In this document: piece by piece, positions 13,725-40,806 of the stretch
How the letters are laid out: each line of letters opens with the position of its first letter
How positions within the stretch are numbered: position 1 is the stretch's first letter
Source of the DNA: Salvelinus alpinus
Lineage: Eukaryota > Chordata > Actinopteri > Salmoniformes > Salmonidae
Length of the DNA: 64,000 nt
Direction of reading: 5' to 3'
Assembly: GCF_045679555.1 (NCBI RefSeq)
Contig: NC_092087.1
Location: 87,330,361-87,394,360 of the forward strand
Position numbers and translations under genes: made by a program
The notes under the pieces: model-generated
The model's database searches: none
Told to the model about the DNA's origin: nothing
The model's input: the letters and a program-made list of their open reading frames with translations, nothing else

Positions 13725-14354
13725 GTGGTTTATTCACCTTCACTATCATCATCATCATCAGTACAAAATCAACACAGACACTTTCAGAAGGAGCAATGTC
13801 CTGTTACATGAAATATTATTTATTGCCATTTTAAAACACATCATGCAGACACAATATGACATCATGGATGTTTGGAGAGTTGAAGGTAGTTCCACCAGCG
13901 AGGGCGTTCCACTCCGGAACACAGAAAGATGGAACATACCGGAATGTTCCATGATTGATAATATTACATCTCACAGTTAACAAGTTCAGATTATTTATTG
14001 ATTTAAAGCCTTTGTCCTTAGATGAATATCCACCATTTTGTCCAACTAGTAGTTAGAGAATTGAATACATCATTGTTAATGAGAATGTGATGTCAAACTA
14101 TTCTTGACCCCCTAACTAGTGTCAAACTTTCCCAGGTAGGAAGAGAGGGGTTAGGGGTGGATGGGAGAGTGGATATCCAATGAAGAGATATCGTTTACCC
14201 CCCTGACAGCCCCATTGAGTCTGTTTTGGGGATAGAACATGGGGCTGGGGCAGTGGGGGTAAATATGGGCGTCCCTTCTGATAGGCCACACCCACAGGAA
14301 GTGTCACTAAATGACGTTGTTGAACAGATGCATGGACTGCATGATGTAATCATC
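13725..14354 (-). pseudogene. Relic 3' end of a kcnip2-like gene (terminal exon and 3' UTR)
   Basis: On the minus strand an acceptor (polypyrimidine then CCGTCCAG) precedes a 48-nt terminal exon, 14,307-14,354, encoding DDYIMQSMHLFNNVI and TAG. The better copies at 32,280-32,327 and 40,759-40,806 read DENIMQSMHLFDNVI. The relic has three replaced residues. The 3' UTR is alignable down to a conserved AATAAA on the minus strand at about 13,727, next to a CATCATCATC tract. No other KChIP exon lies in unit A or between it and gene B, so this is an orphan 3' fragment left by the segmental duplication. Confidence 0.8.
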
Positions 14355-14420
14355 CTGGACGGGAGGCAGGAAGGGACAAAAAGCACAATGGGTAAGAAGC
14401 AGCTGGAGAGAAGGTTTCAT

Positions 14421-15063
14421 TCTATTTCCATGTATCTCTTTCCTCCTAGAAACCCTGTTGTATAAGAACCCAAAGTGAACCGGAGGGCCTTGTTGTGGTC
14501 ACAATAACAACCCTTTGTCAGACATCCCTGTGGTCCTTCACACATTCCTGAGTCAGTACCTAGGAATTAGTAGATGTCATCCAGACCGTTTTTACATGTA
14601 TAAACAGCTGGATCTCGTCTGAGCGGTTAGCTGGATGTGACGAGACCCGCTACGTACTTAATGCTGATTGGTTTTGGTTCTGCCCACTATAGTGCTGTCT
14701 GGTCAGAACACGGTGTTGAGGTCCGTCACTCTACTCTTGATGGTCACCACCACATACATGCAGACACAACTGTTTCCATTTGAAGATGTTTTATATTATT
14801 GTGTGGTTATATTCGCTGGTCTCACACTTCAGTAAGGAACTACATGTCAAAAGTCTGTCAGCAACACAACACTTCTTCTCAAGACTGACGATGCCGTGCA
14901 CTAACTAAAGGTGAGGGGAGGCGGTGTCCTGCAGCGCATCCAAGCACCCTGATTGGTTGGATGACCAGCGGTGTGAAGGATGATTGACAGGGCTGCAGGC
15001 CAGTCAAGTTGAGGGCATGCAAACACACACAGTCATGCCACGCCCATAGGGCTCTGGTCAAAG
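14421..15063. other. Spacer between units A and B, nothing recognised
   Basis: No supported exon, RNA gene or clear mobile-element end was seen. A short open minus-strand frame at 14,879-15,061 has no domain. This stretch separates the kcnip2 relic from the start of unit B homology. Confidence 0.4.
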
Positions 15064-15459
15064 GTAGTGCACTATATAGGGCTTATGGTGTCATTTGGGA
15101 AGCAATCAGTGTAACAGAATGACAGTGGCATGTTGTACTACTACAAATGTGTGTTTGTGTGGTTAAATGTGACTTTGTCAAGTAGCCAGTGTTGTTTTTC
15201 ACCATTCTATCTGATGTATTGTCAGTTTGTAATGTTATTAGTCCAACATTATTGAGGACATGATTATTAGGATGCAGTAATGTTGAGATGCCAGTAGGGG
15301 GAGCTCTAGTCTAGAACACTGGAACCTTCAGTACCACTTTGATACAGCTGATGAGGAGTGTAAATTGAATGGGTTTGTAGAATAGAGGGAAAATCTAATG
15401 AAAGGTGTAGACCTTACCATGAAATGCTTACTTACAAGTCCATGGAACCGGTCAACTGT

Positions 15460-37515: not shown

Positions 37516-37935
37516 GGTTGACATCCATACAAGCGTTATACTCTGATTTTTACCACAAGATAGTACACATACTCTATACTGTAAATAATAGCCTAAATGT
37601 AGGTTCATTTTGCTGGGGGGCAATGAGGAGATTTGGGATCTTTCCCCCACGCGTTTCCATGGTAATTTGATTGTTTTGGTCGAGTTCCATTGACCTCTTT
37701 ACAGCATCTTTTCAATGCTTTGCGCCCAAGCCGAAGAGACTCCTCGTCCTTAGGAGGTGTGTGCAAATCAAAAGGTGCCTCACAACTGCACTCGCTCCTC
37801 AAAAACGTTTGGTGTTCAAAACACTCCTGCTCTATGAACAACTTCCGTTTCTGACAGTTACCGTGGCAACCCCTTACAGAACATAAAATGACCATTTATA
37901 TGAATCCATGTTTGTAAAGTTGTGAGAAGCGATAC

Positions 37936-40037
37936 TGTTACGTTCCCCAGTTTCTGTGTTGTGGTTTGTATTTGAGTGTGTTTCAGGAGATAGCTTCCTG
38001 AGTTCGACTCAATGGCTAATTGATGATTGGAGAGCTGACCCCGCCCCCTCGTCAAGAAGCAGCTGACTCTAATCAGCTAATAGCCACCTGAAGATATAAA
38101 AGCCAGTGTTCTGTTTAAGAGAAAAGATGATAGGCAGAGATTGAATATTTTGGAGAGATCTTTTTTGGAGGGAGAGAAAACATTAGAGAGAGAAGATTTT
38201 GGAAAGATTGGAGAGAGAGATCCTTGCTTGAGAATTTGATTGTGATAAAGTGTTGGTTGTTTCTCAGAGATTTGGTATGTACTATATAAGTTGTTGCTGA
38301 GGGAGCTGATTGGTTATGTCTTATGTGTTATAGGACGCACTGTTTTGATTATTGAAATTGTTTGTTAATAATTGTTCTGTTTCATTTGTTCCCAGGGGGG
38401 AAGGAGAAGGCACTTTGGGAGTGCTTAGGCAAGAGGCCCGCGGGCATACATATACCCGTAGTATATTCATTGTCTAGGCACACTAGGTAAGACCTGGGCG
38501 GACCACCCCCTGTATTTTGGTTAGGGCACCAGGTGGTGCTAAGATAGGTAAGTAGTGGGTAGGCAGGTTAGATAGGAAAGGGGGAAGTTTTGATATTTAC
38601 TTTCTTTGCTTTGGTTCCGTCCAGCCCCTTTTCCCCATATTACCGTAAGGAAATAAATCCTAGTAACGGTCAAATCTGCCTTTGTCGTCCTTACTCACGC
38701 CTACAGTCCATACCTCTTACACTTCACAGGGAGTTGAGTTGCAGCAGGGAGTTGCGTTCCCTCTTCTCAGAGGCGTGCGTAACATAATGGGGGCTCATCC
38801 GGGATTCCATTAAACCCACCGGACCCTGCTGCACTGAACTCTCTGTGGTTAGTGATTGAGGTGTGATGGTAGGTTGTGAGTTTGGATGACTTGTTTAGTT
38901 TGTGTGTTCAGTAGATTGTTGTGTACAAGATGGCTGCCTCAGCCATCTCCAAGTTCATTGAAGCACCCTCTATTGACTGTTTGTTGAGGTTTCGAAAAGT
39001 AGACCTTTTAGTTATAGCTGACCATTATGGATTTGTTATCCCTGAGAAAGTCCTAAAGGCTGAGCTTTTGGTGCTAGTCAGGGAGGGTTTAGTGAGAGAA
39101 AGAATTCTCTCATTGCAAGGAGAGGAGACGGGTAGACTTTCTGATGCCAAGTCGGAGGACAGGGCGGAGGAAGGGGTTGCTCGTACCCCCTTTGCATTGC
39201 CTCGCTATGATCCTTTATCTTCTGCTTCCCGGACGAGCCCCCATTATGTTACGCACGCCTCTGAGAAGAGGGAACGCAACTCCCTGCTGCAACTCAACTC
39301 CCTGTGAAGTGTAAGAGGTATGGACTGTAGGCGTGAGTAAGGACGACAAAGGCAGATTTGACCGTTACTAGGATTTATTTCCTTACGGTAATATGGGGAA
39401 AAGGGGCTGGACGGAACCAAAGCAAAGAAAGTAAATATCAAAACTTCCCCCTTTCCTATCTAACCTGCCTACCCACTACTTATCTATCTTAGCACCACCT
39501 GGTGCCCTAACCAAAATACAGGGGGTGGTCCGCCCAGGTGTTACCTAGTGTGCCTAGACAATGAATATACTACGGGTATATGTATGCCCGCGGGCCTCTT
39601 GCCTAAGCACTCCCAAAGTGCCTTCTCCTTCCCCCTGGGAACAAATGAAACAGAACAATTATTAACAAACAATTTCAATAATCAAAACAGTGCGTCCTAT
39701 AACACATAAGACATAACCAATCAGCTCCCTCAGCAACAACTTATATAGTACATACCAAATCTCTGAGAAACAACCAACACTTTATCACAATCAAATTCTC
39801 AAGCAAGGATCTCTCTCTCCAATGATTTCTCTCCCTCCAAAATATTCAATCTCTGCCTATCATCTTTTCTCTTAAACAGAACACTGGCTTTTATATCTTC
39901 AGGTGGCTATTAGCTGATTAGAGTCAGCTGCTTCTTGACGAGGGGGCGGGGTCAGCTCTCCAATCATCAATTAGCCATTGAGTCGAACTCAGGAAGCTAT
40001 CTCCTGAAACACAACACAGAAACTGGGGAACGTAACA
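37936..40037. mobile_element. Inverted-LTR element (copy 2)
   Basis: This is the second copy of 29,456-31,558, with the same GATAC flanks. It carries two substitutions and a 1-bp deletion in the right, reversed LTR relative to copy 1. Confidence 0.85.
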
Positions 40038-40758
40038 GATACTGAGTTAGTTAACTAGCTCCCAACTATTGGCCGGAAGCGCTGAACTGGAAGTCACCCA
40101 CAAAAAAACTAAACAGACCCCACCCATATTTCTGTTGAAAATTAGGTGAATAGGACACAATATGGATGTTTGGAGGGTTGTGGGTAATTCCATCAGCCAG
40201 GGAATTCCATTCCAGAACATTGAGTATTGGAACATTCTGGAACTTTTGTTGATTGATAATAATATATCTCACAGTTAACAAGTTCAGACCAGGCAGTGAG
40301 ATTATTGCCGGATTTAAAGCCTTTTGTCCATAGAAGACTAAGAGTCCACCACTATTAATAGAGAATAAATTACATTATTGCATAGTGTGAATGTGATGTC
40401 ATATAGAATGAGTGCTATGGTCTCCAACATGGCGTGGTTCTTGACCCCCTAACTGTTGTCTGACCTTCCCAGGTAGGGGTGTTTCTTTTGGGGCGCAGAG
40501 ATGGGCTAGAGGTGGATGGGAGAGTGGAGACCCATGGAGGTGTACCTATTGCCCACCTAACTGTTGTCTGATCTTCCCAGGTAGGGGTGTCTCTTTTTGG
40601 GGGGATGGATGGGAGAGTGGAGATCCATGGAGGGGTACCTTTTACACCCCTGACAGCCCTAATGAGTCTGTGTTTGGGGATAAGGGGAGCTGGGGGTGGA
40701 GGCTGTGGAGCTAAATATGGGAACCCTGTCCTTTAGGCCACACCCACAGGAAGTATCA

Positions 40759-40806
40759 CTAAATGACGTTGTCAAACAGATGCATGGACTGCATGATGTT
40801 CTCATC
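40759..40806 (-). CDS. kcnip2: kcnip2 terminal exon, nearest copy
   Basis: It encodes DENIMQSMHLFDNVI and TAG, phase 0, with the acceptor CTTCCTGCCGCCTGTCCAG. It lies about 2.2 kb from the penultimate exon, which makes it the default last exon. It is identical to 32,280-32,327. Confidence 0.88.
   Translation of the reverse strand, partial: DENIMQSMHLFDNVI

Follow-up and report, generated by a model that had tools for sequence, protein, structure and literature searches.

Extra copies of the last kcnip2 exon in Salvelinus alpinus are probably passengers of one old and one very recent chromosomal duplication

We analysed a stretch of 64,000 bp from Salvelinus alpinus (contig NC_092087.1, positions 87,330,361 to 87,394,360; hereafter the window, with coordinates counted from its first base). 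It carries a kcnip2-like gene on the minus strand, three copies of the 48-nt last coding exon of this gene, two CD22-like immune genes on the plus strand, and a nearly perfect tandem repeat of 8,480 bp. The last six coding exons of the kcnip2-like gene, which are core exons with EF hands, join in one open frame with AG/GT borders: exon 3 at 48519-48643, exon 4 at 47301-47370, exon 5 at 46678-46856, exon 6 at 44707-44811, exon 7 at 43015-43077 and the last coding exon at 40759-40806. The first coding exon (61230-61316) and exon 2 (53112-53211) were placed by their match to the N-terminus of a salmonid protein, and their borders are approximate. When compared with structures in the PDB, the encoded protein scored best with KChIP2 (348.9 and 348.3 bits) and about 7 bits lower with KChIP4 (341.5), KChIP2 being the closest of the four KChIPs. 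Among the matches listed, it is 98% identical to proteins of Salmo trutta and Oncorhynchus masou, of which the former is named KCNIP2, but the latter KChIP4-like. The reading frame and the PDB scores agree with a sequence-only reading of this DNA that had assigned the exon to a kcnip2-like gene. On our best reading this gene is intact and ends at 40759.

Tandem repeats take in an edge of each of three kcnip2 exons, placing many decoy splice sites near the real ones. A 51-bp array of about 87 copies (56757-61243, TLVEGTVG in translations) repeats the end of the first coding exon; five copies of the start of exon 4, acceptor included, lie upstream of that exon (47354-47798); and a 47-bp array (44497-44720) repeats the end of exon 6 along with its donor. 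The C-terminus of one predicted KChIP2 of Oncorhynchus mykiss (P0095) corresponds to a read-through of the exon-6 donor into the region of the 47-bp repeat (compare 44497-44707).

The last coding exon is present at 40759-40806 (copy B, the one proximal to exon 7 and expected to be used), at 32280-32327 (copy A) and, as an older relic, at 14307-14354, always on the minus strand. Copies A and B are identical, read DENIMQSMHLFDNVI followed by a stop, and have the same AG acceptor upstream. The relic differs from them at 4 of 48 nucleotides and 3 of 15 residues and reads DDYIMQSMHLFNNVI before its stop; acceptor, frame and stop are kept in all three copies. The sequence and a pattern search thus bear out the three copies of the sequence-only reading. 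When up to three mismatches were allowed, a 41-nt pattern from the exon revealed no fourth copy in the window, and it gave no match in 100 shuffles. A retrocopy of the exon alone, or its capture by a transposon, was rejected because the intron and long flanks were copied with it.

Copies A and B of the exon lie in a long head-to-tail repeat. Self-comparison of the window aligned 25902-34382 with 34382-42861 in a single alignment of 8,481 columns at 99.93% identity, which defines a copy A (25902-34381) and a copy B (34382-42861) with flush borders and a junction, at 34382, that shares one base (T) with the outer border. This is the anatomy expected of a recent tandem duplication. The gap of undetermined bases (N) expected between falsely duplicated copies is absent: there is no run of N at the junction, and no N among all 64,000 bases of the window. 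The terminal exon does occur in three copies, but at 32.3 and 40.8 kb what was repeated is not the exon but this 8,480-bp block. Besides the last exon, the block includes most of intron 7 (2,055 of 2,208 bp) and about 6.4 kb past the stop, whereas exon 7 starts 153 bp beyond its right border. It also holds a Tc1-like element, a palindromic long terminal repeat (LTR) element and the 3' end of a long interspersed element (LINE), of which Rfam at gathering thresholds found two in total, one per copy.

The two copies of the block show only six differences, five substitutions and one single-base indel. Five of the six differences fall between 314 and 1,276 nt past the stop (copy B/copy A: 40445/31966, 40438/31959, 39631/31151, 39540/31060 and 39483/31003), ahead of the first AATAAA or ATTAAA, which lies at +1,380 and +1,381 nt in the two near-identical copies. 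At the remaining one (33971/42450), copy B is matched by the other Tc1-like copy, which lies at 46.4 kb. The inverted arms of the LTR element are more similar to each other in copy A than in copy B. As far as polarity can be guessed from such comparisons, both copies appear to have changed. Recombination between Tc1-like elements was considered as the source of the repeat and rejected, the right border lying 188 bp past the end of one such element and the overlap being 1 bp. In the LTR element itself (29456-31558, and 37936-40037 in copy B), a short central part separates two inverted arms of about 0.8 kb, which are 99.8% alike in copy A. A 5-bp direct repeat (GATAC) flanks the element, which contains the first AATAAA past the kcnip2 stop and resembles an inserted retroelement in an inverted-LTR form.

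The relic at 14.3 kb belongs to a larger and more diverged duplication. A collinear chain pairs 252-14417 (unit 1) with 15058-32390 (unit 2, now followed by the recent repeat) through 16 same-strand pieces that total 5,780 columns, with a weighted identity of 85.3%. Each unit has a plus-strand CD22-like gene, convergent with kcnip2, at 3017-9762 in unit 1 and at 17588-21451 in unit 2 (approximate extents, by homology). Both genes have a CD22-type first immunoglobulin (Ig) domain, scoring above the cut-off of the Pfam model PF24518, and further Ig domains, and a putative transmembrane stretch and putative tyrosine motifs were seen by eye in their translations. The joined protein of gene 2 has salmonid relatives named CD22-like, sialoadhesin-like or Fc receptor-like; the top-listed one is named Fc receptor-like 5, and a CD22-like protein of Salvelinus fontinalis is 84% identical over the full length. 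Identity did not resolve the orthology of the two genes to 16 chosen salmonid proteins. The older unit thus pairs a CD22-like gene with the 3' end of kcnip2, the neighbour that faces it. The sequence-only reading missed this immune gene, as well as the 8.48-kb size of the recent block; its proposal of two duplications at different times fits divergences of 0.07% for the recent repeat and of 8-32%, depending on the piece, for the older one.

The two CD22-like genes differ in structure. Gene 1 ends (8757-9059) in QKQADDV and lacks the last tyrosine motif, VQYDAVKF, which is present in gene 2 and in most of the 16 chosen relatives. At 4303-7041 gene 1 also has several extra pairs of Ig-domain exons, 82-97% alike and missing from gene 2, which suggest a further, internal duplication.

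A second kcnip2 exon left a trace at the other end of unit 1, contradicting the view that all other KChIP exons exist once. Positions 179-242, on the minus strand, match exon 6 and 11 bp of the upstream intron (blastn, 64 columns, 75%, E 6.6e-9); the relic reads MTDIMHSIYD ahead of a frame break caused by a 5-bp insertion, and is truncated at 179 by a repeat of which an inverted copy lies at 15457-15653. Its local score was 30, whereas 60 shuffles of the 25.9-kb target gave no more than 20 and the best match elsewhere in 261-25901 gave 12. None of 200 shuffles of the exon scored as well, and of 50 same-strand tests of exons against regions, that of exon 6 in 1-1349 gave a clear match. A 16-nt match to the last exon at 206-221 (1 of 200 shuffles as good) falls inside this relic and was taken as chance. 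The homology between the units starts, on its left, about 10 bp from the exon-6 relic, whose orientation is the same. We interpret this relic as the kcnip2 part of a further unit, whose exons 7 and 8 are predicted to lie to the left of the window.

The anatomy of the locus, with its identities, junction and reading frames, is probably best explained by two chromosomal duplications beside an intact kcnip2, the first old and the second very recent, which took the extra terminal exons with them as passengers. Long ago, a block in which a CD22-like gene faces the 3' end of kcnip2 would have been duplicated in tandem. What is left of kcnip2 from this event would be the relic of exon 8 at 14.3 kb and that of exon 6 at 0.2 kb, the latter stemming from a further unit. 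Very recently, a piece of 8,480 bp, from inside intron 7 to a dispersed repeat downstream, would have been copied head to tail, with a 1-bp overlap of the sort that end joining or template switching during replication may leave. Exon 7 would then be spliced to the proximal copy B, with transcripts ending there, while copy A and the relics would be silent.

Several observations weigh against this account. The chain was built from plus-strand matches of at least 60 columns and is collinear by construction; inverted pieces (12015-13412/25518-24254 and 2-177/15653-15457) were left out, and some of its links consist of repeats, either tandem or dispersed. The interval 14418-15057, where the model expects exons 6 and 7, showed neither of them above chance. 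An 18/19 match of exon 5 in this interval, at 14977-14995, may mean little: none of 200 shuffles equalled it, but under a second scoring 99 of 300 did, and it clashes with the expected place of exon 6. Furthermore, the exon region is 84% identical between the units and the main CD22 piece 92%, a disparity that requires either gene conversion or separate events. We read it as gene conversion in the CD22 part. Alternatively, a kcnip2 fragment could have been copied alone and the immune genes duplicated later, an order of events that would suit the missing exons 6 and 7 and the poor conservation of the stretch between relic and CD22-like gene (pieces of 68-75%). Yet the pieces within this stretch share order and orientation in both units, and unit 1 has the exon-6 relic at its left end; we consider separate events improbable.

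The recent repeat has its own difficulty, since its six differences are all found within 3 kb of the 8.5 kb (p about 0.02 if evenly spread). Both their number and their clustering would suit two alleles, so that the assembly may have laid two haplotypes end to end where each chromosome has one copy, an error common in assemblies (PMC9516828, in the available excerpt); the older relics would be real regardless. The lack of N and the single base shared between the junction and the outer borders make an overlap-based misjoin less than obvious, although filled gaps or chimeric reads could still account for the junction. On balance we hold such an error to be unlikely, if well short of negligible, and think that the 8.48-kb repeat is rather probably real and present in the animal.

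Would the extra exons be used? The retention of acceptor, frame and stop in all three copies, and an AATAAA at +308 nt of the relic, could suggest that kcnip2 has a working alternative terminal exon in copy A or in the relic. However, exon, acceptor and 3' flank of copy A are nearly identical to those of copy B, and its use would thus give the same protein and almost the same 3' untranslated region (UTR). The middle copy, which the sequence-only reading had seen as a ready-made alternative exon, would therefore add no coding diversity. Nor would splice junctions tell the two apart, because the sequences around the acceptors at 40807 and 32328 are identical; in transcripts, only the five variants past the stop separate them. 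An intron from exon 7 would be 10.7 kb long with copy A and 28.7 kb with the relic, but 2.2 kb with copy B. Constraint on the relic exon is not apparent, with 44 of 48 sites conserved against 185 of 213 aligned flanking sites (p = 0.47, 48 sites giving little power).

Other KChIPs give no hint of the relic's protein end. Among the best 120 of 2,072 matches, 119 end in relatives of DENIMQSMHLFDNVI, the exception being P0095. In a set of 203 KChIP-like proteins, formed by these 120 and the best 120 of another 280, the relic's motif DDYIM is absent and FNNVI occurs once, in a collection with one protein per 90% cluster that could hide a rare isoform. A bacterial-type promoter scan of 14.0-14.5 kb was set aside as irrelevant to a fish gene. 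We regard an alternative terminal exon as extremely unlikely. Scarcely more credible is the joint idea that the kcnip2 3' end is a standing part of a repeatedly duplicating salmonid CD22 unit and that at least one orphan terminal exon is spliced, namely the 14.3-kb exon with its own poly(A) signal, joined to kcnip2 or another minus-strand transcript; spliced onto kcnip2, it would alter the C-terminus of KChIP2.

The constancy of KChIP genes points the same way. In the available excerpt of a review of this family (PMC3973911), a set of C-terminal core exons is constant in all KChIP genes, as in the window gene, and the known variants are N-terminal, whereas a genomic repetition of the last exon goes without mention there. 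Given a copy A that would yield the same protein, a relic with no visible constraint and these constant core exons, the intact gene is expected to work from copy B alone, and the extra copies probably do nothing.

The duplication itself is of a known, ordinary kind, and its anatomy is instructive rather than surprising. Vertebrates in general favour tandem over dispersed duplication (PMC13431229, excerpt). The available part of a survey of 492 Atlantic salmon (PMC7560756) lists 1,244 curated duplications with a mean of 8,183 bp, similar in size to ours, with 186 of 230 calls confirmed for presence; many cut through genes, and two CD22 genes have partial duplications of 19,710 and 39,099 bp. 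Those data are read-based and the part seen contains no link to kcnip2, whereas our repeat comes from one assembly. Partial-gene tandem duplications in Drosophila yakuba likewise break genes and can make chimeric transcripts (PMC5460883, in part); expression was measured there, whereas here a promoterless 3' end was copied. False heterotype duplications, as described in the excerpt of PMC9516828, are also adjacent, nearly identical copies that cut through a gene, but they are mostly separated by gaps, unlike the repeat in the window. None of the best 12 of 1,116 literature matches on kcnip2 in salmon or with cd22 contains the name kcnip2, which makes "unreported" a weak claim.

Should the 8.48-kb repeat be real, its age is probably low enough for individual fish to differ in it, and its six differences would make typing easy. 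Apparent last exons that are passengers of a neighbour's duplication should not be annotated as isoforms without RNA. More generally, a constrained gene may seem to gain alternative last exons merely because it lies tail to tail with a duplicating immune gene.
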